Assembly: GCF_963576615.1 (NCBI RefSeq)
Contig: NC_088708.1
Location: forward strand, 68,654,672-68,718,671
Length of the DNA: 64,000 nucleotides
Origin: Watersipora subatra
Taxonomy: Eukaryota > Bryozoa > Gymnolaemata > Cheilostomatida > Watersiporidae
Reading direction: 5' to 3'
Numbering within the stretch: the first letter of the stretch is position 1; each line of letters starts with the position of its first letter. The notes under the pieces are model-generated. The model did no database searches. It worked only from the letters and a program-made list of their open reading frames with translations, and had not been told where the DNA came from. This document shows positions 19,801-42,200 of this stretch, piece by piece. The position numbers and the translations under genes were made by a program.

Positions 19801-21835
19801 CTGTAAGCCGATGTATCGACTTTCGCGTTAATAGAAGCATAGACTGTAAGCCGATGTATCGGCTTATCAATAGGGTTCCATTTTTCTTTTTATTACGAAG
19901 CCTACACATTAGCTAGACCAATCAAATTTTGGCTCCAACGAAACAACCATGTTGCCAATCACATGCACCCAATCGAAAATCTTTTTGCTAAGCAATTCCA
20001 TTTCTTATCATTTTTCAAAACGGAAAAACCAAATCGTTATCGTCATGACAATAATAAACTCACCGCCGTTCTTTTAATGCAAAGGAAGCGCCAGAGATTT
20101 TGCAAGAGTGGGATTCACTAAAATATTTTGTATTAATCTTGTAGAGAATTTTGTTCTGAATGAGTTGCATTTTACAGTAAAACGATATTTGCATTGATTC
20201 TTGAGATATTACGTAAATGCTAAGCGTTATATCAATTTTTAAAAAATTCGGTCCGAATAATCATTTGGTCAGAATTTATTGCGGTAGTGAAAGAGTTAAG
20301 CAATCACACAATAAGTATAAAAAACAGAGGTATACCAAATTTGAATATTTCTGATTTATCAAGATATTTTTGTTAACTTTTAAACAGTTTTGACTGCGAC
20401 AACTTCCAAAAACTATGAATAATTTATAACTGGACAATATGAACATTTTTAAGCAGATATTTATGCAAAAGTTTATGATTGGATAAATTCATAGCAGTAG
20501 GCCTAACTATCATTTAAAAGTCTGGTTTCTTGAACGGTCGGAAGACCTTGGCGATAATTATGAGCTGCAAAACATGTGTTGCAGCGTGAGACTCTGGCGG
20601 CTTGTGTTAGCATATACTGCATTGCTGGTGATTGTGGCTTATACAGGAATCGGTTTTAGAGGGGTTCATTGTGCCATTACAGCAACAACGTATTGTCAGA
20701 CAACCACTGTTATTTTAACCAGCACTTATAACCAAGAACAATCATGGAAAAATCAATGCTAGAAAAGCATATCGTCTGTATTCTAATAGGTTAAACTGAT
20801 TGCTTGTATCGCTAATTGGTTGGCTCGGAATTCAGCTAAAATATGCTGGCAGATTATTGGCTAATGTGCATGTAGATGTCATAATAAAATCCCTTGAGAG
20901 TAAAAATAACAGAGGGTTAGCAGGAGTCTGACCAGTTGCTTCGTTCAATTATACTGGTTTGTGTAGACATTCGATGATAAAAAAACATTCTTAATTACTA
21001 TTGTTTAATATTGCTCAAGGGTGGCAAAACAAACTAAACATGGCCTTATAATCACTGCACAGCCTTTTATGGCAGATTGGCAAATTTAGACAAAGCTTTG
21101 AATTAATGCTAGAGTTGCATGAGACAGAATTTTCAAATTTTTCTATAGATAGAAATGTCTAGGGAGAAAGAAAGGCTACATAATTATGCTCCATGATTGT
21201 TTACTGACTGTGGGATCTTTGTGTCAGCCCTGGTTTCACTGCCGTTATATTCATTACAGGGATACATGCCAACGAAACAAGACATTCTACACGCTAGGAA
21301 GGCTACCAAGGGAATAGTGGAGTATGACACTATGATACAGAAAATACCATTTAAATTTGTGGATGTGGGCGGACAGCGGTCCCAGCGGACTAAGTGGTTC
21401 CAGTGCTTTGACAGCGTGACAGCAATATTATTTCTCGTGTCTTCGAGTGAGTATGACCAGGTACTCATGGAGGACCGACAAACGAATAGACTCGTCGAAT
21501 CTGTGCGGATTTTCGAGACCATTGTCCAAAACAAAAACTTTCTCAATGTTGCCATTATTCTGTTTCTTAACAAAACTGACTTGTTGGAGGAAAAAGTAGA
21601 GAAGGTCTCCATTGCGGATTATTTTCACGAATTTGAAGGCGATCCCAATGACTTGTTCACTGTACAAAAGTTTATACTCGGAATGTTTGATGATAAATGT
21701 CACCAAAGCGAACGAACGAAGCCTCTTTTTCATCACTTCACTACTGCTATTGATACAGAGAACATCCGATTTGTGTTCCAGGCGGCAAAAGACACTATCC
21801 TACAGGACAATTTGCGGAGTATAATGATGCAATAA
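4375..21835 (+). CDS. GNA12/13-like: G-protein alpha subunit, G12/13 class (3 exons, 360 aa)
   Basis: This is a heterotrimeric G-protein alpha subunit at the inner plasma membrane. It binds and hydrolyses GTP and, in this class, couples receptors to RhoGEF/RhoA signalling. The coding exons are 4375-4830, 13974-14024 and 21260-21835, all joined in phase 0. The assembled protein shows the P-loop GSGESGKST at residues 44-52, switch [10 protein letters not shown] with catalytic Arg182 and Mg-binding Thr185, and switch II DVGGQR with Gln208. It also has NKTD at 273-276 and TTAIDT at 330-335. The C-terminus [11 protein letters not shown] is typical of G12/13 rather than Gs, Gi or Gq. Cys7 and Cys8 are likely palmitoylation sites, and there is no Gly2 for myristoylation. 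At 360 residues it is close to human GNA12 and GNA13 (about 380). Whether it is orthologous to GNA12 or GNA13 cannot be said; many invertebrates have a single gene. The introns are 9.1 kb and 7.2 kb. Confidence 0.95.
8665..9859. mobile_element. hAT-like non-autonomous transposon with 8-bp target duplication
   Basis: The element (8673-9851, 1179 bp) begins CAGGGTTGG and ends CCAACCCTG. It is flanked on both sides by the identical 8-mer ACTAAAGC (8665-8672 and 9852-9859). An 8-bp duplication plus short terminal inverted repeats is the signature of the hAT superfamily. The subterminal part at about 8690-8830 is a run of GGTTTTTATGGTTTAAACC units, and related bases occur near the other end. The minus-strand frame at 9090-9323 is short and not recognisably a transposase. 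Confidence 0.88.
10170..10705 (+). repeat. Dispersed repeat family D, copy 1
   Basis: The internal sequence around 10420-10570 (AATGTAACATTACAATGTAC..., then the CTTACTAAACATACATAAAG region) reappears as its reverse complement around 17560-17700. The ends ACCCTCGCCCTAT (about 10176) and AACCGTATAACAGGGTAACC (about 10675) reappear, inverted, near 17905 and 17215. It is a mobile-element copy with no coding capacity that I can see. Boundaries are approximate. Confidence 0.6.
11440..12791. mobile_element. TA-flanked Tc1/mariner-type element (host of a nested insertion)
   Basis: The left end CAGTCAAACTCCGATAACTC and the right end (reverse complement CAGTGAAACTCGGATAACTC) match at 18 of 20 positions. 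Both sides abut TA (11438-11439 and 12792-12793), as for Tc1/mariner/pogo-like transposons. A 600-bp TTAA-flanked element sits inside at 11559-12158. The open frame at 12102-12416 starts in that insertion and runs into this element; I do not recognise it. Confidence 0.75.
11559..12158. mobile_element. TTAA-flanked inverted-repeat element, copy B (600 bp, nested)
   Basis: Same family as 1440-2317: ends AGGTTGACTTGC...CAACCT between TTAA at 11555-11558 and 12159-12162. It is shorter than copies A and C, so it has an internal deletion. Removing it plus one TTAA rejoins the surrounding TA-flanked transposon, so it inserted later than its host. Confidence 0.8.
13008..13691. mobile_element. PIF/Harbinger-like element with TTA target duplication
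   Basis: The element (13011-13688, 678 bp) starts CACTATGTTTCCATG and ends CATGGAAACATAGTG, an exact 15-bp inverted repeat. TTA lies on both sides (13008-13010 and 13689-13691). A 3-bp TWA duplication is characteristic of PIF/Harbinger. Subterminal CTGCGCAGT motifs recur at both ends. A short plus frame from ATG 13274 could be a transposase remnant, but I cannot assign it. Confidence 0.75.
13974..14024 (+). CDS. GNA12/13-like: G-alpha 12/13 exon 2, 51-nt small exon (residues 153-169)
   Basis: Between TTTTACAG and GTAGGA the frame reads [17 protein letters not shown]. This aligns with the human GNA13 segment between EFQL and the YIP residues (pattern xSVKYFLDNLxxL) with no length difference. 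Both junctions are phase 0, so exons 1, 2 and 3 join in frame. It completes the end of the helical domain before switch I. Confidence 0.93.
15311..16539 (-). mobile_element. Tigger/pogo-like transposon, nested, with transposase remnant
   Basis: The ends are CAGTCATACTTCGACTTAC and (reverse complement) CAGTAATACTTCAACTTAC. They abut TA on both sides (15309-15310 and 16540-16541). On the minus strand at about 16257-16101 the frame reads [20 protein letters not shown]...[11 protein letters not shown]. This resembles the CENP-B/psq helix-turn-helix at the N-terminus of Tigger/pogo transposases. The rest of the transposase is not open, so the copy is dead. Confidence 0.75.
17215..17920 (-). repeat. 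Dispersed repeat family D, copy 2 (inverted)
   Basis: Reverse-complement relative of 10170-10705. Shared blocks include GTACATTGTAATGTTACATT-type sequence and the outer ACCCTCGCCATAT end. It lies inside family E copy 1. The open frame at 17087-17524 crosses its border and has no recognisable homology. Confidence 0.55.
17945..18028 (+). repeat. 17-bp minisatellite inside a transposon terminus
   Basis: The unit GTTCAAATAAAGGAAAC is repeated about five times. It appears to be an expansion of the GGCGTTCAAATAAAGG subterminal sequence of the enclosing family E element. Confidence 0.85.
18583..18802 (+). repeat. 30/31-bp minisatellite, 7 copies
   Basis: Seven copies of CTTATATTAGACATGTTGGG joined by GTGACTACTCGC (31-bp unit) or GTGAATACAGC (30-bp unit). 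The first units are the 31-bp type and the last the 30-bp type, with mixing between. Open frames across it on both strands are by-products of the repeat. Confidence 0.9.
19790..20295. mobile_element. piggyBac-like MITE (506 bp)
   Basis: The ends CTCTTTCGCTAC and GGTAGTGAAAGAG form an inverted repeat. The right side is flanked by TTAA (20296-20299) and the left by TCAA (19786-19789), read as a mutated TTAA. Two direct copies of CTGTAAGCCGATGTATCG lie just inside the left end. Confidence 0.65.
21260..21835 (+). CDS. GNA12/13-like: G-alpha 12/13 exon 3 (residues 170-360)
   Basis: The exon begins after TTCATTACAG with [19 protein letters not shown]. It carries switch I, switch II ([13 protein letters not shown]), NKTD, the TTAIDT guanine-binding loop and the C-terminal receptor-contact helix ending in IMMQ, then TAA at 21833-21835. 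The frame upstream of 21260 is intronic. Human genes of this class have extra introns here, so the single large exon is simplified. Confidence 0.95.
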
Positions 21836-24250
21836 CCAGTTTAGTTGTTGGTCTTATTTTCATTCAAGGGCTTGACATAACTTGACATGGTGCGTTGTAG
21901 CACTTGTTAGTCACTGCAACTGTAGCCTTGACCAAGCGCTAGCAATCGCTCCTAATATTGCAATTGGCTGCCGAGACTTATGAGGCTATGTGATTAGCCA
22001 CTGCAACTAAGATTTGTATGTTAGCTTCTAGTCCTACTTTCCCTCTTACTTAGTTACCATAGTTGATAGTTTCTAGTCTTCAGTCGGCAAGTGAAACACA
22101 AACTGTTGCTATGATTTGAGAGCTATATTTTTATGAAGTGAGTCGATGAGTGAAACCTCCGAATGCTTGCTTAAGCATTGCAAAGTTGCTTTAGCGCACC
22201 AGTGTGTGTACAGTTTCTACTTTTGTCTAGTATCGAATTTACTGTTGACAGCCTTTATCTATGCATAAAATGTTTTGTTTATATAATTGTGTTTACTTGA
22301 TTGATGAAGTAAGAAGCTTGTTTTATATACAAATGACTGCAAACTAATTTTAGCTAATCCGCTCAATGCTAGTTGAATGGGCTGCCTCGAAATTCCAATA
22401 CTCTCAAACTAAAAACCCACGCAGATCTGTCATCTGCTACATCATACTGACCAATATGTAGTTTGATTATTACTACATGCATAATTCTTTACACTTTTAT
22501 TATTTTAAGGTCTTGCCAAAAATATTTTATAAAATATATGTATTACCGTGTGACAATTCTTTACAATCTCTAAATAATATACAACAATAACAAAGCTGTT
22601 ATGATAATTTATGTATTGACAGAAATGGTTTTGCTACCTCGGTGTTGATTATAGACATTCATGTGCCTCCTGTCATGGTATTTTATTGAGTGTTAACACC
22701 AGGTCTTTGACCTGACTTGCTATTATTTGACAGGCCATTCAAAATTCTCTCTTGGTTTCTTCGTGATAGACAAGTACATGTACATAGTGAGATAAGTGGG
22801 AGATTGGGTGACTGGTTTCTCCATGCTAACTAGGCTTAGGGTTACCCAGCAACTGTTGGTGAAACTACGTAATATGCCAACTGGGTCTTTGACTGCACGC
22901 AGTGCAGGATCATGAAATCCTGCAAACTCTTTCAGTTCACTGAAATAGTTTGAAGAGGACTGATATACATACTTGTATCTTTAAATGTCGAAGAGATCCT
23001 GCCAAAACATTAAAAGTGTAGGAGAATGTTTTTCCTATATAAACTGATGAATCACTCTTGCTTAGTTGTAGCGGCAAGCTATCTTAAACACGTATTAAGT
23101 ATGAGCCATTGTTTTGCACTCATACTATTAAAGTGCTTTTTCATGTATAATTATTATTTATTTATTAAGTTTAATATAAGTGGCCAATGAAAAATGAGCA
23201 ATTTTCAGATAAATTTATGGCGATTCTGCATAGATTTCTAAATAAATAAATGGGCACATATGTCTATTTGTGGTCTCGATTCAATTAACAGCTGCTCCAA
23301 TGATTGGCAGCCAGTTTGCCTTCAGGCAGTAAGAATGTAGGTGTTATAATATAACTGTTGTCACTATTCCAGCAAAAGGGCTGGCTGCACACTTGCGCCA
23401 TCTAGATATAGGTTTTTAGAATGGAAAGGAGTGTCAAAATTCAGGCTTACAGTTAAAGAACTTTCCTTTGATGTCGGTGACAACGGCTAGAGGGTGTTGT
23501 AGTGATCCAATTACGCCTGCGTGGGTGAGAAGCATTGTTCAAAGCTGCAGTTCAAGTTTGGTGGGTGGTGCAGGTAATTGGGACTGAACATTGATTGATG
23601 TGTAATTCATACCTTTGGTGCATTGGTAAAAAAGGTCATGACATGCTGTGGTATGAAGAGTACAAAAGCAATACATATTTATTGAAACTAACTGTTCAGG
23701 CACAACCACAAAGTATGAAAATAATTACAATTTTAAAATCACCTACAGAAGAATTAGTAAGGAAAATACGAATCACAATAATGCCAGATTCAATGGATAA
23801 CTGATGAAGTAACTATGAAAGCTGGCATGGTGCTCATAGCTTCAAAGCTTTCAATATGATGGTAAATGTTGTCTTACCACCTTGGATACATATATCGCAT
23901 ATGTATACATGCAGACGCAATGAATATAGAGCTTGCAGTAAAATATTGGGTCAAAAAGTGTTAAAATAAAATTTCAACAATATAGATTGTCAGAAAATTG
24001 GTTAAAACAAAGCTAACAGAAAAGTTGTAAATTACAAATAAAACTTGTCAAGTTTATTAAAACTGGGTAAGGCCTTGTAAAAGCTACAAAAAGGACCATT
24101 ATCATCATTCAAATAGTAACAAATAAAATATAACACTCATAGAGCGAAAGTACATAGGAAAAGACAATAATAAAATGATGAACAACATACAAATATAAAG
24201 CCAGCTTTTGCATAGGAAAATTCAAAAACAATTAGATATAAGCATAATGA
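21836..24250. other. Convergent intergenic region with both 3' ends
   Basis: Tail-to-tail spacer between the G-alpha gene (plus) and the phosphatase gene (minus). Possible plus-strand poly(A) signals are ATTAAA near 23125 and AATAAA near 23240. On the minus strand an AATAAA (plus TTTATT) near 24053 lies about 200 bp past the phosphatase stop. I see no coding region; the frame at 23595-23804 is unrecognised. Confidence 0.5.
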
Positions 24251-24294
24251 TCAACTGATTATCTCTTCATAGTCAGGGGCATGCTTCTCTCTCC
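24251..24294 (-). CDS. PTPN12-like: Phosphatase exon 15 (terminal, YEEI motif)
   Basis: After CTCTGCAG the frame reads (G)[13 protein letters not shown] then TGA at 24253-24251. It fits phase 1 from exon 14. YEEI is the classical Src-family SH2 ligand. There is no homology support, only splice sites, phase and a downstream AATAAA, so this is a candidate. Confidence 0.5.
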
Positions 24295-27200
24295 CTGCAG
24301 AGGTTTTATCTTGTGAGGATATGCTAAGGGAAAATCACAGAAAGAATATAAAATGGTCAACAGACGCAATTGAACATCTAATAGCCCAATGGTCACACAC
24401 AATTTATGCCGGAAATAAGCCCGTCTTCACTAAAAACATACAGTGGCAAAGTTTCTAACTGATATGCAGAGCATACGATGTATATGACCAAACCCTTACC
24501 CATACATGTATATCTCTGATAATAATGGTAGCATCTAAAGTACTTTGATACTCTGTAAACAGCCACCAGTAAAAGGCTTTATATATGCAGCAATATCTCA
24601 CTATTATTTAATCAGGACCTGCCACATATGCTATTGATAGAAACAACTAAATTTAAAAAAAAAATTTTCCATTTATGTAAAATACCAGAAATGGCCATAA
24701 CAGAATTGCAGCATTGTTCTTAAAGTTGAAACCTACTCAAGACAAAAGCCGTGGCACTGCAAGTTCATGATATCGACACCCCTGGCTATAAATAAACAGA
24801 GTACATTAACTTATGGGCTAAATACTTGAATAAATACGTGTTTAATAATATTGTTCAAATAAATGAGTGCTTATAAATGTAATTACCAAATTAATCAAAG
24901 CGTAGCGACAAAGGAAAGTACCCAACCAAGCTTGCAATTTTTCGCAGCAAGTTTGTTTGACCATTTTTGACTATTTTTTATTTTGTTCAAGTGTTGATCA
25001 CTGCCACATGTCTATTTCACTCTATTTTCACTTCATCTGAGCTTAGACAGTCAGACCTGTTTCAAAGCTGAAAATGACTCTGACTGATAATGATGACCTC
25101 ATAGGTTCTTTTTGGCTGGTCAGTTGGAGCTTCACCATCGTTTAACCATAACATGAATTCATTGTTGAATTCTAGCAGACAACCAAAGCCGGGAGTAGCC
25201 GTAAATACCAACTGAGACTCTATAAAGATCTGCCATCCCTTTGTCTTCTCTAGACATTAATTTTGTGGAATTTTGTGGTATTCGATTCAGTCATGAATCT
25301 ATTTTCAAATCATTAAATGAAATGGAGTGTTGCAGGTCTTACCCATATTCATTCCTCTGTACATGATTTCCACCGGCGATGCCAAAGAGCTGTTACCTGC
25401 AGCTAACGTCAAAGATTTCTTGTTGTTAGGTTTCTGCAAGGAATAGGAAGTAGGCAATGAAGTAAACAAGGATTGGTTGAGCATGCTATTTCCTGTATAT
25501 AGTTGCCACTGCTTATGATAAAATCAGCAGTGACTCAGTGCGGGTAAAACAAGGGAGCTAGCAGCAGCACACATACTACACTATAGGTTAGTCCTCCAGG
25601 CTCATAGCAATCATCTACAGCTTGTGAATGGTTGTTACGCTCTTACGGTTTCACATTCACCAGATATCAACTCCCTACACCAGCCCTGCTCTAACCATTG
25701 GAAATAAACGGTTAATCAATAGTTCAACATAACTGGGAAAATTAACACTGCAATGGGCTCAAAGATGTTGTTTCTCAAACAGAATTGTATGGTCTCTGAG
25801 ACCGTAATGTATAGTCTCTGAGACAGCAATGTATTGTCTCTGAGCCAGCAATGTATTGTCTCTGAGACAGCAATGTATGGTCTCTGAGACAGCAATGTAT
25901 GGTCTCTGAGCCAGCAATGTATGGTCTCTGAGACAGCAATGTATTGTCTCTGAGACAGCAATGTATGGTCTCTGAGACAGCAATGTATAGTCTCTGATAC
26001 AGCAATGTATTGTCTCTGAGCCAGCAATGTATGGTCTCTGAGACAGCAATGTATTGTCTCTGAGACAGCAATGTATGGTCTCTGTGACAGCAATGTATAG
26101 TCTCTGATACAGCAATGTATTGTCTCTGAGCCAGCAATGTATGGTCTCTGAGACAGCAATGTATTGTCTCTGAGACAGCAATGTATTGTCTCTGAGACAT
26201 CAATGTATGGTCTCTGAGACAGCAATGTATAGTCTCTGAGACCGTACTGAGACAGTAATGTATAGTCTCACGTTGAATAAGCATGTTGATGCTTGTTCAG
26301 GATGTTTTTTACTGCTCCATCACATTGGCTAATTTTGTTGTCAAGGAGCCACTTTTTCACCCGAGGCTACTAAAAACTATGAGCCTGCCATAGCGATAAT
26401 TATTTTTGGGAGTCATAAAATAGAACATGAAAGTTAAAAACAGACTTGAACAGGTTATTCATTGGCTAATTATACACCACTAGCGCTAGTATAAATGGAA
26501 AATAAGAAGTGAGGATAAAAGAAAACATAAACTTGCCCGATTGTCCTAGATTGTCACTCACTAAACATCGATGTCTGACAGAGAAACGTGAAACCACAGT
26601 TTCACAATAGAGTTATTTGCTCATGGTATACAAAACATGATTGGGTGAGATGGACTACCTAAACAAAAATTTCCTAAAAAATCTGTTGCTGAAAGTCTTC
26701 AAGTGCCGTGGGGTTTGTGCTTTCTGAAGATAAGCGAGGAAGACAAACGCAGAGTTTTTATAAGAGTTTTAAACAAAGCCTCTTTACAACAATTGGTAGG
26801 AACAAAACAGATTGGCCATGCTCCCATCCAAATGTTCGAGTCAATTGAGGCAGCTTGTTATCACATGTTAACTCAAACAAGTTTTCATTGCTGCCTTAAC
26901 GACCTTAAATTACTACCTCAAAGATGAACTAACACAAAATTTTAGATTTTTTCAGAATGTATCGGGTCCTGCTCGGCCATTTGCGGTTGTTTTTGATGTT
27001 TGAGGTGATCTAACTGCCAGGATGTTTCAAGATTAAAATGACAAAACTTGATTGCGGCTAAAACACTCGGAAGAAAAATACATTTGAATTGATGTCACTA
27101 CTTGCTATCCTTGCTATAGTTGATATCCTTGCTATAGTTGCTATCCTTGCTATAGTTGATATCCTTGCTATAGTTGATATCCTTGCTATAGTTGATATCC

Positions 27201-30200
27201 TTGCTATAGTTGATATCCTTGCTATAGTTGATATCCTTGCTATAGTTGATATCGGCTAAAGCGTTCAAGTAGCAGCATTACGTGTCTCTATTCAGTTGGT
27301 CTCTTTGTAACTGTAGACGTCACAATCGCAGTTTACCCTAATCGACACTATTAACCGCGATCAAGTTTTGTCAAGCTTAATCTTGAAACATCCTGGCAGT
27401 CAGATTACCGCAAATATCAAAAATGTTTTCCTCGCAAATACCGTACTTTTCGAACTATATACCGCACCCCTATATAAGCCGCATCTGCTTTATTTTTTAA
27501 AAGACGATAATAAAACAAAACATGCCGCACCTTTGTATAGGCCGCAAAACTCAGGACGTTGCTTTTTAACACGGCAGCAACTTTGCTGTTTAAAACGGAA
27601 CAGTGCCTAACAGCACTGTTTCGTATTAACCGACGCTTTTTAACCTAGTGCCTAACGGAACAGTACTGTTATGCATTGTTTCGTATTTTCTTTCACCGCT
27701 AGAGGTACACTAACCGGAGATTCTGGTTAATGCGCCCTAGCGATCAAAGAAAAAGCCACAGAGTAGCCGCACCCTTACGTACGCTGCATGGCTCAAATCA
27801 TCAAAAAAAAAGTAGCGGCTAATAGTCCGAAAAGTACGGAAATAGAAAAATACCTTCAGATGAAACCTACTGAAATTTTGTTTGAGCTCATCTTTAAAGA
27901 CCATACAATGCTGTCTCAAAATGAGAACAGCATTCAACCTGTTTACCAGGATTAAAATACAACAGTCAAACTTCAATATAGACATGACTCGATCAATGTC
28001 CGGCGCTGCACCAGTAATAAAAAGTTTTTCTACAGAAAATTTACATTTAAACAACATATTCAACATTTACCATTCTAACTTTTAAATGAAGGTGTATGTT
28101 TATTTCTGTGTACTGTGCTATTTCTGTTTACTGTGTTTATTTCTGTGTAATTCATACTATACCGGCTGCAGTACCTCTACAGCCCTATACTGATTGCAAT
28201 AGTCTTGTTGGTTATGTGTGAGTTTTTCTTCACCTATGGGCATGCATTTTTCTTCTGGTAAGGCTTCACGGATTTTTCTTCATGTATGGCTTTACGCATA
28301 TCGCTAGCTGCAGTGTTCAACATGAAGCCATGAAAGGCCGGCATGTATTCCAAGTACGGGCTAAATTTATTCCATGGTACAGCCAGTTGGACAATGTAGT
28401 GTGTTGGATAAATGGATGTCCACAGAACTGGAGGTTGTGAGTTTAAATCCAGTTCGCAGCGGATATGTCGTTCTTAAAACTTTGTCGCTATAGTTGGACA
28501 GACGGATGTACAGAGGTACAGACGGACAAACATTGAGATTTATATATATACTATATATAGGATTAACATTTGCATGTATATATATATATTTTTCAAAGTC
28601 CGTCTGTGGATCAGTCTGTTGGTTTTCTGGCTATTGCTATTATTAGAACAGCTGAGCTGGACAACAATGCAGACTCAAAGTCATGGCTTACCGTCATTAG
28701 AAGCCTAACCTTATTAACTAGCTTTGTGGAATTTTCTATTGGCAATATGCCAGGCTACTAGCTTGAAAGGTACAGTTGTTTGACAAAGTTTTAAAACCTT
28801 TACAGTTGTTTTTATTTTTTTCATGATATGTAGTTTGAAAGTTAGAATGGCAAATGTTGTTATATATTAAATACAAATCAATTATCTGTCCAAATATTCT
28901 TCTATTACACGGGCAACGTCAGGTGGTACAGCTATTATATATATATATACATATATATATGTTAATCCTTGTTGGTATTTTCTTCATATTTCTATTCATA
29001 TTTTTGTTTATTATAAAATACATTTTATTTGGTTCAATTTATTAGACAGCCCAATGAACAATGAAAAATAATTCAATTATGTATAGCCATAAAACAAATT
29101 AATTGTATTAAACTATGTGCAAAACAAACATGAAAACCTACACTATTTGTAAACAACTAAATTAATAGAGTAATAATCAGTAGAGTGAGTTTTTAATATC
29201 GCTTTATCTTCGATTTTAATATAAAGTTACAGACTGTCAACCCATTTCAACTTAACGTTTTATGAACAGATTGCATACAACATCTAACAATTATTTTAAA
29301 AATACAATTTTTAGCTGCTTTAACAATCTTCCACCTAATATCCATTATTTTAGCAAAGAAAGGCATTTTAAACACTGTATGTCAAACAATTTATTTGATT
29401 TTCTCGGTTAACTGTTGCCCTATTTTTCTTTACTTTGTTTTATTATTGTTGTATGGCATAAATTTAAAAATATTTCTATTTAAAATGAAATTATTGCCAA
29501 TAAAGTAATATATACATGTATATGTATATATATATTTACGTGAACGCAAGTCTGAGTTCAGCAATGCATAGGTTCGGTGAGAGAGCATCTGATAGAATTA
29601 CACTTTGTAACCTACTTTAATTTACATTAGATATAGGCTACATTTAATTAATTTGATTTAAATATTCTCTACTATTATGACATCTTATTTATAATTGTTA
29701 TTAGTTTTTCACCTTCATTTATAAAACCCTGTAATGTTTCATTCGCTTATGTCAACACGATATTTGCTCAAGCTTAACGTCATTTGTCGAAAAATGCATA
29801 CCGTGATTATAAGTCAGGGTTTGACATTTTGCTTCATCTGGATACACTATGAATTATTATCTATGAATTACCCTGACCAATAATCTATAAATTTTAATAG
29901 AATATTATAAAAAAGGCCAATGTAAGACTAGTATTTAGATCGGGTTTGAAGATAATAAATACAACTTAAAACTGACTGCCTTCCTAGCACCTAGCATAGC
30001 TTATTGTGAATATGTAGCCTGTACTATGTACTTCAACTAGATTAAAACATGCTCAAGTATTTCCATGTCCAAACATTAAAACAAATAACTTATCATTTCT
30101 CAACACCGACAATACCATAATTACAATTGAATATGGACAATAAAAAGTTTATATTTACAGTTCTCAAAATTTGATTGACAAGGCAATAGTTTTAAATGAT

Positions 30201-33200
30201 ATTTGACTTTACCCAATACAGCAATCCCTCATTTGTCAAAGATAATCAGCCCCTTGAAAAGTAAAAATCCACGAAATGGAAACTGATGAACTTATATCTG
30301 AAAAAGTCACTTTCTAATTAATCGTAAGCGTTTTTCAAGATCATTAGACAATTTTGAGGATTCAAGGCTATTAGGAGTCATGATGAAGGTTTTCCCAAGC
30401 ATTTTTACACTTCCCAAAACATAACAGAAAAATGGTGAACCATGATGATTGCTATCACAATGATGCTTGCGGAGAGACCTCTTTGGGTCAAGTATGAGAG
30501 AGATACACAGATTTTATGTATTTTTGTTTTGTTATTTTTGATTTTTACCTATTTTCTTTGATTTTTGATGTATTTTTCACACCTCGATGTACTGAAGCCG
30601 TGAAAGCTGAACAGCCAAGTTGCTAGGGACTACTGTAATAAACAGAAAAACTAGTGAATATTTGTAAAAGCTGCCTTCCATTAATGTATTCAGAGTTGAG
30701 GAAATTAAAAACTTATGTTGCAAAAAGACAAGGTGTGAAGGTACCCAGCAAGAATATTTAACACTACTGTCACCTGAGAACAAAGACAACAGAAAATTGA
30801 AAATGCAAGCGGAGAATGTTGGAATTTAACAGGGATCATCTCGCAAGGAAGTAGCACCTACCATTAAAGTTGCCTAAAATCATAGAGTACGCATATAAAC
30901 ATGAATCAAGTTTAATTTAGTTTATGCATTTCACTAATACATGTACTGCATAGAATATAGTAGGCGCTCCTTTCCCATTTCTGTGAGCGAATTCTAGTGT
31001 GTGCCTTCAGAAGAATGTAAACATGCATAGGAGTTGTGCTATCCAAATGAAGCCTTGATAAAAGACGATTCTCACTGAAAACAGGGAGTTGTGACCTCTC
31101 TACATCACATCGCACCTGTGTTTGATTTCATGATAGCAATGCAGATAGATCTGAAGATGAATGCAGGATACAGTGTGAATAATCCAGTATTTACATGGTT
31201 ACTACTATTAATAGACTGGTAGTCTATTTTGGTAAAATCTGTTTAGAAAGTATATGCATTTATACGGATGAAAATATTGGAGTGCTCTGATGACAATGCT
31301 CGAAATGAGCTTATAGTGAACTGATAGTGAGCTTATAGTGAGCTTATAGTGAGCCTATAGTGAGCTTATAGTGAGCTGATAGTGAGCCTATAGTGAACTG
31401 ATAGTGAACTGATAGTGAGCTTATAGTGAACTGATAGTGAGCTGATAGTGAGCTCATAGTGAACTGATAGTGAGCTCATAGTGAGCTCATAGTGAACTGA
31501 TAGTGAGCTTATAGTGAACTGATAGTGAGCTGATAGTGAGCTCATAGTGAACTGATAGTGAGCTGATAGTGAGCTCATAGTGAACTGATAGTGAGCTTAT
31601 AGTGAACTGATAGTGAGCTCATAGTGAGCTGATAGTGAGCTGATAGTGAACTGATATTGAGCTTATAGTGAGCTCATAGTAAACTTATAGTGAGAAGAGA
31701 GTGAGCTTATAGTGAGCTTATAGTGAGCTTATAACTACCAATCTAACTAACAGACTAACTAACTAGCCTTTGATAGGTATATAAAATCAAGCTGTTCCCA
31801 ACCATTCTGAACAGGTTGACCTTTGTTTAACAAAACTATACATATTTGGTAAAATTACTATATATGCATCCCCAACAATTAGGAAGGAACATGAGGTTTT
31901 GTGAGAAAAAGAAAAAATAAATATTAGCTTACTAAAGATGAAAGCTTGAAAAGACCTTGTTTGGAGTTTAGCAAGGTGCTAGGCTTCGGGATAGAAAACT
32001 GGTTCCCACTGTTAGTGCTCTCTTGGGTGTCTGTAACAAAAATCAGCAATAGCAAATTGTGTCCATATCAGTGACGGTTTGCGAGCTTTGGCTATACTGT
32101 ACAGTTGCATTTATGTACCCATCACTTAAATAAACTGTATCCCAAAATGAAGCATTTGGCGCAACCATAAATAATTTGGAAGAGCAGACCAGCAGCAAGA
32201 GGTGTTTGGGATACGTATGTCATTAAATTCTTTTTAGAAGATAAAAATGGATGAGAAGACAAATGAGCAAAGTAAAATGCAACAAAAATTTGTTGCTTAC
32301 TCTAATGCACTAAACTCTGATTATGACTACATATAACGATGAAACGGACAATATTTGTATTGCGTACAAGCAGCATCACTTACATTCAACTAAGCTATAG
32401 CTGTCTGCATCATCTGAAATGAATGCATCTCCAGTTTTCTCTGGAAGAGGTGGCGGTTCTGCCAACGAGTATTCACTGGGCTCTAAATAAAGTATGATAA
32501 AGTCCACAATCTAAATTACAGAAAGTATGATGTAGTTTACAGTCTAAATTTCATAGAGTATGATGTAGTCCACAGTCTAAATTACATAAAGTATGATATA
32601 GCCCAGTTTAAACTACATAAAGTATTATATAGCCCACAGTCTAAATTACATAGAGTATGATGTAGCCCACAGTCTAAATTACATAGAGTATGATGTAGCC
32701 CACAGTCTAAATTACATAGAGTATGATGTAGCCCACAGTCTAAATAATATAGAGTATGATATAGCCCACAGTCTAAATTAAATAGAGTATGGTATAGCCC
32801 ACAGTCTAAATTACATAGAGTATGATGTAGCCCACAGTCTAAATTACATAGAATATGATGTAACCCACAGTCTAAATAACATAAAGTATGATGTAGTCCA
32901 CAGTCTAAATTACATAGAGTATGATGTAGCCTACAGTCTAAATAACCAGCAATGAACAATATATGAGGAGGCTAAATACAGAATATACCCGTTTATAGAC
33001 GGCACCCGATTGTCTATAAAAAGCTAAAAAAATGGAATGATTTCCATAAAATAATGTTCAAGATGCAGCAGAACTTCAAGCATGAAAAAGCTGCATGTTC
33101 ACAATTTCATTTGTGTCCTTTTGCATCTATCAGATAATATAAGTCACAAAAACTCTTATCATTCGTTACTCAAAATCAAAGACAGACGAAGATGAGTTTT

Positions 33201-36200
33201 AGATGCAGAATTTTCTTCAGTAGAAATTCAGCATAGATTTGTTTAATCAATTATATAAATATAATTGAAAATATAAATATATGAGACCATGACTTAGGCC
33301 CAACCTGAGTTCAGAGAGCCTGAGTCAATCACGGGAGAATGGCTCACAGGAAGGGCACTTTGCTTTTGTAATTGCTTTCGATTGCGACAAAATTTACGGT
33401 CTCCAATATCGGCATACGAATATTCTTCCTCGGCTTTTGCAGCTACCCGCGTGTCACTTCCTTTACACCCTGCAAATGATTTACAATGAGATTTAAGAGT
33501 ACTAAAGCAGTAGCTAGTAGTTACCTACCAAACAGTCGATCAATTCTACTTACCACTTACAAGAACGATTTCATATAAGCCAGAAATTACAAAAGTATGT
33601 ATCTACGTTTACCCTGGCTATCGGCTGTGTTGTGGCTTATCTCCTCCGCTAATTGATATTCAGTTTGACCTACAGTTTTACCAGTCGCAATTTCTCCTGC
33701 TAGACAATATTGGTTTAACGCATTGTTTGTTTCCTTGCTGCCTTTATCATCCGCTGCCGCATTCGCTGATGGAATCTCTCCAGCTAAACTGTATTGGGTA
33801 AGTACTGGTGTTGGAACTGAATTTGATGTTTGATTTGTGCTGTCCCCTAAAAGATCTATCTCTGTATACTGGTGAGAATACTTAGGTCGAACACGCTTAA
33901 CCGGTGACATTGGCTGACAGTCCTTAGGTTGTACAACTGTAGACTTATTGGGTGTGATAGGCTCAGGAAGAAACTGGCTGTTCGCTGTGTGAGATTTATC
34001 TAAACTTTGAGAACCTGGAAGAGGTGGCTTAACTTTTGGCCTATCTGAACGTGGCTGAATTGGAGGCTTTGTTGGAGAGAGAGTTTCTGAAGCGCCTTCT
34101 GAAAATGCATCACCACCTTTCACTGAGATAGTCGCTGATATAGTCCCGTTTTTGGGAGGTGTCGTCACTGAAGCATATGTCAAGTTGACGAGGCCTTCAC
34201 CAGTTGTACTGACACATTCTACCATATTGCTCTGAATGTCATTTTTTGTTGACTTTGTCAATGTTGCCAACTTTGGACGAGTCGGTTTTTTAGGAGGTGT
34301 AGCTTTCCTGGCTGTGTTTAGGATCTCTGGAGCCTCAGAACCTGTCGAGTCTACTCCAGCTCTATTATCTTGAGAGAGAGAGCTGAGACAGTCATGAGCA
34401 ATGGCCGAACTTTCTCTAAGAGACTAAAATTGAAGCAAAAACAGTGCCATGTAATCGACATGCCTATGTCAGAAAATTCTTTGACCATAGCCGCACTACT
34501 GAAAAGCTGGTCGAAAAAAGGAAATGTAGGTATATGTCAATAATTGGACGAATACTAATAGAGACAATACCCACCCTATGCATCGGTATAAAGGTCATTA
34601 TTTACTTCACACACTGCTTTGTAAGCTATTCTCCAACCCAGATTATGTAGGTCATTATAAACTCTGCACTGCTATTTAGGTCACTATAGACTCTATGCAC
34701 TGCAACTCTATGCACTGCTATGTAGGTCATTATAAACTCTATGCACTGCTATGTAGGTCAATACAAACTCTATGCATTGCTACGTACGTCATCATTCACC
34801 CTACGCAGTGCTTAACAATGCTATGTAGGTCGGTGTCTTCTCTATGCACTGCCATTTATGTTATTGTTCACTTTATACTCTGCCATGTAGGTCATTATCA
34901 GCTCTCTGCTATACTATCTAGACTATTATCAGCTCTCTGCTCTGTAGACTATTATCAACTATATATATATACCGCTTCATCAAGAATAACATAAATTAAA
35001 CATAAAAGCTTGCATATAACAAACGAGCTATTTACAATATTCACTGAATTGCATTAAAATGAGATTGAATGAAAGATCTCACCTTTTGGGTACGCTGTTT
35101 GCTGAAGTTGCTTGTGGAATGCTCAAAGTTTTCATATAAATGGTTTGAATGCGTGTGGAGCTTCTGCTGGAAGAGTTCCATTATAGCTTGATAGACTGTC
35201 TTATACTGCTCCTACATGAAACAGGAACCTAGGCTATACAATTACAACTTGATAGTAAGACAAAAACTGCTCCTACATGAAACAGGAGCCCAGGCTATAC
35301 AATTACAACTTGATAGACCGTCTTACGCTGCTCCTAAATAAAACAGGAATCCAAGCTATACAATTGCAACTTGATGGACAGTCACGATAAGAGGTCTGAG
35401 GCTACACAATCTAAGTTTTGATAATTTTAAGCTAGGTAGTCCAAAAACCTTACATATCACCTAACACGTATCACCCTATATGTAAAGCAATCACTTGAAA
35501 GTTTCCCTATGACAAAAAATTAATATGACTGAGATGCATGTTGTAATCTTTTGGATCAATAATACACCTGAACGTGTGGTGTTTGTATGTATGTATGTAT
35601 GTATGTATGTATGTATGTATGTATGTATGTATGTATGTATGTATGTATGTACAATTGATGTTCTAATCTAAATAGGATTGACTTTATAAGTTACATTAGA
35701 GCAGACACTCTTATGGTAACAACAACTATATCACTGCGCAGGTGACTGGCTCTTGCATATATGGGGTCGTGTATGAAACAGTATTATGATACAGATACAA
35801 GTAACAGTGGGTTTATGTTACTAGAGCTAATGGCAGCTAATAACTACTCACAGGGGTTTGTATAAGAGACTGCCTTTGTCTCCTCATTTCAAGTAAAATG
35901 TCAAAGACGCTCAGCTTCTCTGTGATTCTGCCCTCTTTAAGCAAATTCTTCACAAAGTCAATTGCCAATAGTGTACCTGTCCGGCCACAGCCAGCACTGC
36001 AAGTGCGAAAAACATGCGAATAACAGATGTCGATGGTTTTTGTATCCCATCTTTCACCAACTGAGCTTATTGTTATGACCCACTTCCTGCGGGAGTATAA
36101 TTTACAACTTCTGCAACTCTGCTAAAATAGAATACGTATTTCTTTAAAGGTTGACTTGCAACAAAATTCACATTACCGGTATTTGATATGAAAAGATTCA

Positions 36201-39200
36201 CCATGTCTTACTCTGTTGTGTTGTAGGTGCAAAATATGTGGAAAGGTGATTACAAGCTCTTAAAAGCTCAAAAGCGAACAGAAAATCGCAGCCACACGAG
36301 ACCGCCGTAGTTTGGATTAACTTTCCGAAACGGCTCAAATGTGATGTAGTTGTGAGAGATGGTTTTTGTTTACACTTTCTTGCAACCTTATTCGTTGAAA
36401 TTTTTTCACAAATATACTTCACGCATTCAATAAAACTATGTCTATTGTTCTTACGCGTCTGTTTTATCGTCATCGTAATGCTGTCACTTTTAGCAGTGAT
36501 ATCTTATAACTTACCGTAAAAATTCGTTTAATTTTTTAGCCTTAGCTTGAAGGAGTACATATCATTGTCTGATAACCATGACGAGCCTGTTGGTCACTTG
36601 TGATAATCGAAAAGTGCTGCAGAAATTATTTGCGAAGTATTGGGTCACATGATCAGATTACGACTTGCCGATTAAACCAGGCCGAAACAAAACTGTAAAG
36701 TAGCGAGCATCTATATTTGATACGGGGTCTTCGATAAAACCCGAAGTGTTTGTCATAAACTAGTACTACGATAAGTTTTATATTGAGCTTTGTATTGGCC
36801 TTTCAATTCATGTGAGAACATACGTGACAAGACGATAACCAAATTTCGTGGTTACGTCATAGAAATAAAGAGATTCCAATCTACGGCGGCTTTTCGTTTT
36901 TGAGCTTTTAAGAGCTTGTAATCACATTTCCACATATTTGGCACTTACAACACAACGGAGTAAGACATGGTGAATCTTTTGATACCAAATAACTGCAATG
37001 TGAATTTTGTTGCAAGTCAACCTTTAAGAAGCATTTTTCGGTACAAATAAATATCATATACGGTAAATACCGCATGAATAAGCTTATAACAAGCATAAGT
37101 GCTTCCAGATGTATTTATAAACCCATAAAATATTGAAAGTGGCACCGCAATCACGTAGTCTGTGAAACTCACCTACAATGCACAACTATGGGAGGCTCAT
37201 CTCCAGGCTGGTATGTTCGGGCACTGCTGAGCATGTCAAGAATAGGAGCCATGTTTTGAGGAATGCCATGGTCAGGCCAAGCTGTATAGTGGTATTGCAT
37301 GATTGTACGCCGGATTCCGTCACACTCGGCTTGCAGTCGCCTCACCAACAACTCCCCATCATCTCTCTTATCCAACGATGACTTTGCACAAATATGACAT
37401 TGCATGACATATTCTATGCATTAGATAGGTAATGGTGGATAGCTAGCATTAGATAGGTAATCTATGGCATTTACTACACGTCATATAAGGTGTAATAGAT
37501 GCCATAGCGATGCCCCTATACAAGTAAATCTGAACAGACACAAAACAAACTCTATGCATGAATATACGTAGCTGATCAACAACTATAACTGTATTATATG
37601 TATTACTAAACTAGCTGTTAACAACTATAACTGTATTATATGTACTACTAAACTAACTGATCAACAACTACAACTGTATTATATGTATTACTAAACTAAC
37701 TGATTAACAACTATAACTGTATTATATGTACTTCTAAACTAGCTGTTAACAACTATAACTGTATTATATGTATTACTAAACTAACTGATCAACGACTATA
37801 ACTGTATTATATGTACTACTAAACTAACTGATCAACAACTATAACTGTATTATATGTACTACTAAACTAACTGATTAACAACTATAACTGTATTATATGT
37901 ATTACTAAACTACATGTAGCTGTTAACAACTATAACTGTACATGTAGCAGCTTCACAATTTCTAAGTTTCTCTCACCAAGATGGAATATAGACATAGAGG
38001 CGATGTATTATAGGTAAGATGTACGACATCTCACCTCAAGATATATGATATCTCACCTAGATCATATTATATATAATAATATCCCATGTTCGTATTATAT
38101 TATCATATATAAGCATGCTAGATGATGCTGTGGCAGGCATGCCTTGTAACAACCCTAAGTATATAATTGTAAAAGCTGAAACACAGGCCAGCAACATGTA
38201 GCATTCTTACTTATTGCTAGAAAGAATACTGTCTGTGTAAACCTATAACTACCGTAAAATCTCTAATTTAACGCCGCCTTTATTTGACCGTCACTTTGAC
38301 ATTATTTGATCTTTATGAGCCCATAATATCAACTAATCAGGAGAAAAGTGTCAACAAAATCGTATCAATAATAAGTCGTTTATATCAATAACAATTAATT
38401 CTCTCGTTGTCCAATTCCAAAGCTTTTCATCTTTTTCGTTAAAACTTTAAAATCAACACCATAGAAATAATCAATGACTGTCTCAGGCTAGTAGTAGTAG
38501 TAGTTCTCCGTTTACATGCAGTCTTTCTACTTCGAAGTAGCCTACATACATAAAAAACCGGCTTCATTTTATGATGGTAAATGAACTTTCAAAGCAACGC
38601 CATAGAAATAATTACTGTCTCAAGTAGTTCCTCGTTTACTGCGGTCCTATTGCTTCGAAGGACATGCATAAAAAAACCGGTTTGCAAGTTTGGACGAAAG
38701 GTTACGTTTACGAGCATACTTTTACGTGTTGCATTGGTGCGACACACAGCGCTTGAAAGTTTTACACCGCCAAAAAATGTTGGACGCTAATATCAACTAT
38801 TTCAGCGATGCAGAAGAAGAATTGAGGCCAAAAGATATTGTGGAAGGTGTTGGACAACTAGTAAATGTTCGTTCTATCGAAAGCACAATCAGAACCCAGC
38901 TATCCGAGCAAACGATGGAAATATTTTTGTTTTAAAAACGTTAATTTTTGTTTCTGCATGTAATGTAAGTATGATTCGTTTATGTCACTTGTTCATGAAT
39001 ATATATTTGTATTATTTGATAGATTATTATTGTGCAGACTTATAAATATGCAGATTTATAGCATGTTATTTAATAGCATACTTGCGGCTATCTTAACACG
39101 GCTCACAATGGATCAATGCTCATAACTCCACTTCTCTTGCACATAAAAAGCTAGTTGTAGCTTTGGCTGCAAACTGTAGCAAACATATCAGTGAATGCAG

Positions 39201-42200
39201 TGAGCTTTTATTCAACAATGTTAAATATAGATATAAAAAAAAAATATGTCTTCAAATTCAGAACGAAATAAAAATTGAAAATGCCAACAAATTGCAAAGA
39301 AGGACACGTTTTATTATATCATCGCAGGTCAATTGCAAGCAATAGATATCAACTGGTAGAGATACTCCTCAATTATATTAAGTTTCTCGATGCTCATTTA
39401 TTAAAAGATCTTTGACAAGTTAGAGGTAAGTTGGCAGATTTATTGCATCCAAAAAATATTCGCTTGACCGGAAAAAGAGAGCAAAATGAAGGCGACATTC
39501 GCTTCGCCTTTAATGGGGCTAAATTTATCTTCCGAAAATTCTGACGAGCCATTTGAAAAATACACCGCCAGCCTCTATTTGAATGCCGCCTTCAATTGAC
39601 CGCCACTCTAGAGGAAGGGCTGAAAAATAGAGTGCCATAGCGTTCAATTAGAGGTTTTACGGTATGTGTGTACATATTCAGCATACCGTGTGTCATAAAA
39701 CACTCACCAAGGTTACAGTAATGTTGCCGAATGTACGATCACTTTCTGTGAGGCCAGGCCAATATCTCGTGCACTTTAGCTGTGTGATAGAGAATACATA
39801 AGCTTGATACAAACATTTAAAGCTATGAATGTCACTGATAACTGATGGTTGTCCACCAGCCTTTTAGATAAACCTTACAACTCTTCGTGACAGTATCTAC
39901 TGTTGTCTAGTTATGAGCATTTACGAAATATCTCTGTGAATTCAAGGCTGTACAAAGAACGTCTTATGTGCAAGTAAACAATATTAATCGATCAGCTTTT
40001 GTAACAAAATGTTTCTACCTACTACAAATATCCCGAAATATTTTGAAAGATTAGTAAATAAAAGCAAATATTGAGAGTTGTTCACACATTGACACTCATC
40101 GTTTAATCAGGACGGTAAGATATGAAACGTTAATATTAGTTTATATTATGTTTAGGGTAAGGAGACAGTAATAAATGAATGATAAGGCATAAGTGTTTGG
40201 GCAGAATCAGGAAACACTCCTAGTTGAAGTCATATTGTAAACCCGTGCCAATATTTCAAAGCCCCGTCTCAAGAGAGACAGTAAGGAACACTCCACCAGT
40301 TAAATACCAATATGACAATCAGTGTATACGCTTTTGTTGACATAGGAGGCAATATTGTGGTGGATGGCGTCCCCTTGCATTTAGCCAAACCAAGCCGATG
40401 CACAGCCTAGCCATCCCGAGTCAAGCCAAGCCACAGCCAAGCCAGAGCCGTACCGACTCAAGACCGAGCTGAGCCGGACCGAGCCGTGCCGGGTTTAACC
40501 AAACAGAACAAGGGCGGGGTTTAGCAGCTATATAAGCCCGAACAATTGCATGGCAGAGCAGAGCTGTTCTGGGCCTGTTCATTGCCTGTTACTTGATTCT
40601 TTCTTGTACACCTTGATGAACTAAGCAGAAATATATGTATTGTATTCATGCACGAGTCTTGTACTAGTGGAGGAAAGTGAAGGTCGCACAAAACCTTTAC
40701 AATATTATAATCATCACATGCAAATTAAGTTAGTGGCATACACTACCTACCTTGTTAGCCTCAAATTCATTGCAAGCCATTAGAATGACCCGCACATCAA
40801 CTTCCCATATCATCCGCCAAAAATCATTGACAGTGTTAGATAGGGGCGCCTGGGAGGCAATATATGCATTGCTACCATATATTCCCTGCAAGAAAATACA
40901 ACAATCATAAATTCCGGCATACGAGTCGACCCGGTGCATAAGTCAAGGTCTAAAGTTTGGTGTAAAAATCCTAGTTTTGACATGTATCTGCCGTATAAGT
41001 CGACCCCTTTCTCTGGCTCAAATCGTTTGATCACCAATAGTTCTGTTGGCATCAGAGGCAGGCGACGCATAGCTGAAGAAATGCCATTCAGAAATGCCAT
41101 CAGCAAAAGTGCCCATGTTTTTTGTGGCACTGGCAATATATACAACAATTAACAAAAGAACAAAAAACCAAAGTTCTAGTGAAGACAACAAGGCATAAAA
41201 AACAATATTATGAATTGTGTGGGTTTGTAGGCAGATACTATAAAAAAAAAGCATTAAATTTGAAAAAGAAAATTGTTTATCCAGAAGACAATCCTCGCGA
41301 TGACAATTTGAATGGTGAGGAGTGGGACTTGGTGTTTGATCCATCTCATGTTAAATATGATTACTAGTATTCCCACGACCAAACACGAGCGAAGCAAGTG
41401 TTTGGGAGCTTTATGATAAATGCATATGTGCACACAACTCCCGAAAACTATCCGTCAACGGCCGTAACCAAACCCTTGTACCGAAATCCCATCAAAAAAT
41501 TTAACCATTTTTGTGTAGAGTCGTTTAAGTATAATAATGATACAAAACACATATAAACCTATTTAAATATGTTACCAAGTCTTTGAAAAGTTGAGACAAT
41601 ATCCTAAAACTTACCCATTTGATCGGATAATGCATAACTAGACAGATTAATTTGGACTAAAATCACCATTAAAACCTGACAAGTCTGTTTTAATCAAAAT
41701 TAAGACCGGCAAATAAAACGCCAATAAATCCGTGTGACAGATAGTAGAACTATTAAGCTGTGAGCATTTCACGAGAAAAACGTGCACATTTCACCAGTCT
41801 ATGGCATTGTCCAATTGCCGAAGGTTTCTGTAATTAACGTAGAAGTACTGAAAGGTAATTGTTTCTTTTTTGCCGATTTTATTATTCAATTTGATTATTC
41901 AATTTTATAAGATTTAATTATAAGATCGAAGTATATAGTGACCGATGGTGTGCAATATATTAGTGTTATCATTTTTCTACAGATTTTGTTGATGATATTA
42001 CGGCTGTACCCAATATCGCGGTACTGCCAAGCCGTTTTTAATATCTACAAAATTAAGTAATAGGCCTACATTTTCTTATTGATATACAGCTATTTCTATG
42101 ACAACCAACTAAAATCTGTTTAGATTTTTAAATTCAGCATAATTCTTTGGATATAAATTCAGAAATCTAAATATCACAACTTTTTGATATTGGTTGCTAT

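Follow-up and report, generated by a model that had tools for sequence, protein, structure and literature searches.

That a PEST phosphatase can be both a substrate of kinases and a partner of SH2 domains is already known. LCK is the main kinase that phosphorylates LYP on tyrosine, at Y526 and Y536, and a Csk with a mutated SH2 domain binds LYP more weakly (PMC3554717); PTP-HSCF likewise binds the Csk SH2 domain (cited in PMC3554717; also PMC9792154). The proline-rich region of PEP and of PTP-PEST binds the Csk SH3 domain (PMC9792154), and the Csk-SH3 site of LYP/PEP is termed P1 (PMC3554717). A C-terminal homology segment (CTH), common to the vertebrate PEST phosphatases, binds PSTPIP1 (PMC8840930). 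Here we analyze a gene lying on the minus strand of a 64,000-nucleotide stretch of the genome of the bryozoan Watersipora subatra (784 Mb in 239 contigs). This stretch, positions 68,654,672 to 68,718,671 of contig NC_088708.1, is called the window, and all coordinates count from its first letter. Judged by its catalytic exons the gene is a member of the PEST subfamily (NT4: PTPN12/18/22), and its tail carries four copies of a tyrosine motif, YxLA. We consider it probable that the product is a cytoplasmic PEST phosphatase with a multivalent docking tail of a known kind, bearing this repeat.

Gene structure and family placement

Reading downstream, the phosphatase gene can be followed from around position 46982 to 32384 or further. 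Ten exons were reconstructed from splice signals and phase, seven of them catalytic (e1 to e7) and three belonging to the tail (e8 to e10), and together they give a partial model of 293 amino acids from the catalytic exons and 358 from the tail:

46871 to 46982, minus strand: exon e1, the first part found, ending NRYRDIVP; acceptor score -3.7
44777 to 44853, minus strand: exon e2, catalytic; from phase and splice signals with PDB comparison
40751 to 40885, minus strand: exon e3, catalytic, ending FEANK; from phase and splice signals with PDB comparison
39708 to 39779, minus strand: exon e4, catalytic; from phase and splice signals with PDB comparison
37173 to 37381, minus strand: exon e5, catalytic, AWPDHGIP to IVVHC; acceptor score -6.7
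35852 to 35996, minus strand: exon e6, the P-loop exon, SAGCGRTG to LIQTP; own-genome match 94 bits
35083 to 35211, minus strand: exon e7, in which the catalytic domain ends; from phase and splice signals with PDB comparison
33613 to 34423, minus strand: exon e8, the first tail exon, 811 nucleotides (270 codons plus a single base), containing YxLA copies 1 to 3 as well as LTYASV and YTEI
33305 to 33469, minus strand: exon e9, 165 nucleotides, phase 1-1, with YADI
32384 to 32482, minus strand: exon e10, with YxLA copy 4 and a P1-like motif

A coding start upstream of e1 was found neither in the window nor in the 30 kb beyond it. When e5 and e6 are joined the catalytic loop is intact, and the Pfam family Y_phosphatase spans the catalytic domain over the full length of its profile (260 bits). 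Comparison of the catalytic exons with the PDB (the best 60 of 263 distinct sequences at E <= 0.001) gave the highest single-stretch scores for PTPN12 (280 bits), PTPN22 (275) and PTPN18 (232), the next single-stretch chain being receptor-type mu with 193 bits. The two-domain receptor phosphatases sum to as much as 340 bits, the best stretches of the two detailed being 185 and 184. It is on account of these single-stretch PDB scores that we place the gene in the PEST/NT4 subfamily.

Searched against its own genome, e6 finds itself at 94 bits and, as the next best among 54 matches, a sequence at 32 bits. For e8 there is no second copy in this genome; matches with E 0.006 and E 9.9, both weak and each with one stop, were dropped, and the former looks by eye like a mobile-element integrase. 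There thus appears to be a single PEST gene in this genome, with no duplicate of e8 from which the splicing could be read.

The genome as a whole contains at least 156 Pfam matches to tyrosine phosphatases. Among them, exons of such enzymes are densely clustered on contigs C1 (60-65 Mb), C7 (7-25 Mb) and C9 (4-10 Mb), some of them interrupted by in-frame stops, and the family appears to have expanded greatly in this genome.

A repeated tyrosine motif in the tail

Three copies of the YxLA motif lie in e8 and the fourth in e10:

33770 to 33796, minus strand: YxLA copy 1, QYSLAGEIP, in e8; first base of the Tyr codon at 33793
33686 to 33712, minus strand: YxLA copy 2, QYCLAGEIA, in e8; first base of the Tyr codon at 33709
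33638 to 33661, minus strand: YxLA copy 3, EYQLAEEI, in e8; first base of the Tyr codon at 33658
32471 (first base of the Tyr codon), minus strand: YxLA copy 4, EYSLAEPPP, in e10

Four of the ten tyrosines among the 358 tail residues are thus found in the pattern [QE]YxLA[GE]. Translation of the window in six frames (127,996 codons) yields this longer pattern four times, always in the tail, and YxLA 25 times, four of them in the tail; the 293 amino acids of the catalytic exons contain none. When the tail was shuffled 20,000 times, YxLA was absent from 18,869 of the products, occurred once in 1,106 and twice in 25, and never reached a higher number, against the four observed; [QE]YxLA[GE] appeared at least once in only 13. 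The motif had already been named by the initial annotation when this count was carried out. A second test, which presupposes the tyrosine and not the motif, gave a score of 83 for the best quartet of Tyr-centred 8-mers; 400 shuffles averaged 9 and went no higher than 54. The YxLA repeat is real and beyond chance. In this respect, as in its recognition of a PEST-type phosphatase gene, the initial annotation of this DNA was borne out, and the further tyrosine sites that it had named, LTYASV, YTEI, YADI and SYSLVE, are all present on the minus strand.

Copies 1 to 3, all in one exon, are spaced by 28 and 17 codons. Aligned over eight codons, any two of the four copies have 1-3 codons in common and differ by 2-4 synonymous changes and 1-5 replacements; Y, L and A never vary among them, whereas the residue at +1 does. 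This retention of the motif residues in DNA that has diverged argues tentatively for age with constraint, the sites being few. The only repeat family over the copies is one of 19 nucleotides, with 79% similarity between copy 1 and copy 2. We reject a recent DNA duplication as the origin of the copies because their codons differ at synonymous sites. No description of a YxLA repeat was found in a search of the open-access literature, and as far as that search shows the motif is undescribed.

The remaining tyrosine sites of interest are as follows, each located by the first base of its Tyr codon:

34177, minus strand: LTYASV, in e8
33868, minus strand: YTEI, in e8
33416, minus strand: YADI, in e9
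32399, minus strand: SYSLVE, in e10

We compared the tail tyrosines with a set of SH2-type patterns, namely the immunoreceptor tyrosine-based inhibition motif (ITIM, [SIVL]xYxx[IVL]), YxxM, YxN, YxxP, NPxY and Yxx-hydrophobic. A single tail site, LTYASV, fits the ITIM pattern, and no YxLA copy does; the Yxx-hydrophobic pattern is matched by YASV, YTEI, YADI and YSLV, and no tyrosine in e8 to e10 fits YxxM, YxN, YxxP or NPxY. A search of the open-access literature for Y354/Y381 of PTPN18 found nothing.

The tail as a whole is rich in Pro, Ser and Thr. One PEST-like segment, residues 608-633 of the partial model, scores 10.28 and covers the P1-proximal YxLA copy, the other five in the tail scoring from -5.1 to 3.3 (our own epestfind-like script, with a threshold of 5). 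Pfam and NCBIfam recognize no family in the tail, and e8 has no PDB match at E <= 1.

A P1-like motif and comparison with described PEST phosphatases

Three proline motifs were noted in the tail:

32418 to 32456, minus strand: P1-like motif of 13 residues in e10, the likely counterpart of the Csk-SH3-binding P1; matched by 1jeg_B
34277 to 34294, minus strand: PKKPTR, a class II PxxP in the early tail, by pattern only
34016 to 34036, minus strand: KVKPPLP, a class I PxxP in mid-tail, by pattern only

YxLA copy 4 runs directly into the P1-like motif, a feature on which the initial annotation had not remarked. Used as a query of 34 amino acids, e10 has a single PDB match at E <= 10 among 177,635 distinct sequences. 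This match, to chain B of 1jeg, has an E-value of 0.18; the chain is a peptide of the PEP phosphatase containing PPPLPERTPESFI, aligned to the 13 residues of the P1-like motif, and 1jeg is presumably its complex with the Csk SH3 domain. We attribute the weak E-value to the shortness of the peptide. The sole match falls in the same phosphatase subfamily, for which reason a chance origin appears unlikely, and on sequence grounds the match supports e10 as a real exon. The earlier opinion that the tails of vertebrate PEST phosphatases do not look like this one does not survive the match of the e10 motif to PEP and the presence of the PxxP motifs. Nor does the opinion that SH2 docking by the tail of a phosphatase that is also a substrate is unusual, because phosphorylation of LYP and binding of the Csk SH2 domain by LYP and PTP-HSCF have been reported (PMC3554717, PMC9792154).

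Among the described enzymes, PTPN12/PTP-PEST is the best single-domain catalytic match and shares an early-tail PxxP, here PKKPTR. PTPN12 differs in having 780 residues, against 293 + 358 in the partial model, and the tail here has neither NPLH, which we take to be a PTPN12 tail motif, nor a convincing CTH. PTPN22/LYP/PEP is similar both in its catalytic domain and in the P1-like sequence. The lower catalytic score belongs to PTPN18/BDP1, which we take to be PTP-HSCF, the binder of the Csk SH2 domain. With respect to docking, LYP offers a parallel to the sites predicted here, being tyrosine-phosphorylated and bound with a contribution from the SH2 domain of Csk (PMC3554717); it is unlike our gene in that the accessible part of that source mentions no YxLA repeat for LYP, and in that the LYP CTH has no convincing counterpart here. 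Finally, PTPN-22 of Caenorhabditis elegans is also an invertebrate member with proline-rich segments, but it has 469 amino acids, its conservation is mainly catalytic and no tyrosine repeat is mentioned in the accessible part of its description (PMC11373843).

Proposed function of the tail and alternatives

We propose that the gene encodes a cytoplasmic tyrosine phosphatase of the PEST subfamily with a long, domain-free docking tail. The P1-like motif would hold Csk or another SH3 protein, and Src-family kinases or Csk would phosphorylate the tail tyrosines. The phosphotyrosines of LTYASV, YTEI, YADI and SYSLV, and perhaps those of the YxLA array, could then recruit SH2 or PTB proteins, and would be removed either by the enzyme itself or by its neighbors. 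Kinase and phosphatase might thereby act as a pair, as has been proposed for the vertebrate family. On this view the YxLA repeat would be one docking site made multivalent, the array having spread either from the P1-proximal copy or in its direction.

A number of observations weigh against this proposal. In LYP, neither Y526 nor Y536 plays a part in Csk binding, and mutating them left an IL-2 promoter assay unchanged; LYP and Csk still regulate T-cell signaling after the binding between them is broken; and loss of the Csk-binding motif from PTP-PEST was without consequence in B cells (PMC3554717, the last as cited there). In the gene described here, YxLA with its Ala at +3 fits no ITIM, YxxM, YxN, YxxP or Yxx-hydrophobic pattern, and for this reason an SH2 reader for it is a conjecture. 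The P1 match is weak, as noted, and is missing with a longer query, e9-e10 as 77 amino acids yielding four unrelated PDB matches (best E 0.58) and no PEP. A CTH end was not convincingly found, either by a pattern search of the window or by an ungapped scan, and relatives of the e8 tail number 0 in IMG/VR (6 pattern stretches) and 0 in GTDB genomes (40 pattern stretches).

With regard to the repeat itself, we consider a phosphotyrosine docking array the most likely interpretation, a motif independent of phosphorylation the second and drift the third. The second of these would make YxLA a short linear motif, recognized for example by one folded partner through its Tyr, Leu and Ala and repeated for avidity. 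This is possible, if doubtful: the Ala at +3, outside all of the SH2 patterns tried, is constant in 4/4 copies, and, unlike +1, neither Leu nor Ala changes, but the Tyr is equally constant and stands in the tail of a family with one member known to be tyrosine-phosphorylated. Drift, in which the copies would be the by-product of old short duplications in a disordered tail under relaxed selection and with no reader, seems to us unlikely. Disordered tails do tolerate duplications, this one has no Pfam domain and three of its copies sit closely spaced in a single exon; however, all four copies have kept Y, L and A while their codons diverged, and copy 4 is in a separate exon. A more elaborate form of the docking interpretation is that this lineage acquired the array of four YxLA copies, one of them fused to a P1 of the Csk-SH3 type, as a multivalent phospho-switch. 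An unusual SH2/PTB (or other) reader accepting Leu at +2 and Ala at +3 would then grade the recruitment of a Csk-like kinase according to tail phosphorylation. We regard this as speculative and improbable as a whole.

The P1 motif, a Csk-docking site known from vertebrate immune signaling, is altered by the human autoimmunity variant R620W. The match described here suggests that P1 has a counterpart even where the tail looks otherwise different, and this offers a starting point for sorting out the ancestral docking sites. As a repeated site, whether of the phosphotyrosine or of the short-linear-motif type, the YxLA array makes a clean candidate; should nothing read it, the array is simply variation of the tail.

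The C-terminus

The tail had originally been extended to a terminal YEEI by means of one further exon:

24251 to 24294, minus strand: proposed YEEI exon, unsupported; weak acceptor, with a better one at 24323 in another frame

The phase of this exon does fit. Its acceptor fares less well: among the 628 minus-strand AGs between e10 and 22000, scored with a simple weight matrix, 24294 ranks 253 (score -4.6), and 24309, a second acceptor that would yield YEEI, has a score of -3.0 and shares its frame. In comparison, the acceptor at 24323 (tctttctgtgattttcccttag), 29 bases upstream of 24294, scores +4.9 and ranks 7, and leads into another frame without YEEI. YEEI as an established C-terminus is therefore rejected. 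The YEEI frame is weakened, not killed, since the acceptors of e1 and e5 score as low and its codon usage is not poor, its 14 codons averaging 0.28 bits each in a small codon model, as high as for real exons. That the tail ends in YEEI, and so is a ligand of Src-family SH2 domains, is nevertheless very improbable: to the points in its favor may be added an AATAAA at 24058, 193 bases downstream, and against it stand the acceptor ranks, the 4.4 bits of the 24323 frame over 20 codons compared with 3.9 for YEEI, an intron of about 8.1 kb before the exon and alternatives nearer to e10, such as a candidate exon that starts at 32030.

A ranking of candidate last exons by codon usage did not settle the question. 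Its best minus-strand scores are 20.6 (a minisatellite frame), 14.3 (26723), 12.0, 9.4 and 9.4 (24323), compared with a top score of 7.3 on the plus strand over roughly that region; two genuine exons, e3 and e4, come out near zero in this ranking, and 24294 was excluded by the acceptor cut-off. The ungapped CTH scan covered the minus strand from 32384 to 18001 with two CTH peptides and 40 shuffles for each. The best score of the PTPN12-form peptide, 13, was equalled by 22 of the 40 shuffles; that of the PTPN18-like peptide, 25 at 18506, was reached by 0/40 (maximum 24). The match at 18506 is probably due to chance, because the KPKGPR-PP core is missing from it, its frame is short and it is situated beyond the presumed G-protein alpha exon at 21261-21836. 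Loss of the CTH and a last exon that has gone unrecognized are both possible. The tail may also end without further splicing, either in e9, which when unspliced reads to GWA-stop, or in e10, which reads to ECK-stop. Exon e9 could be an alternative exon, being phase-symmetric at 165 nucleotides with an unusual donor (CAG|GTTGGG); its skipping would lose YSYADI and keep the frame.

Other features of the window

A minisatellite of 33-nucleotide units, in 13.9 copies, occupies 32487-32943 and stops only a few bases short of exon e10. To the eye the units are similar to the minus-strand acceptor region (ATTTAGA), as if the array had arisen from the splice site. Three further minisatellite arrays, with units of 22, 18 and 11 nucleotides, are found between e10 and the proposed YEEI exon (25779-26242, 27102-27253 and 31306-31733, respectively). 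Convergent with the phosphatase gene, a plus-strand open frame at 21261-21836 reads like what we take to be the end of a G-protein alpha subunit of the 12/13 type. On the minus strand, open frames in several frames between 59000 and 62500 presumably belong to a non-long-terminal-repeat retrotransposon, with endonuclease and reverse transcriptase.

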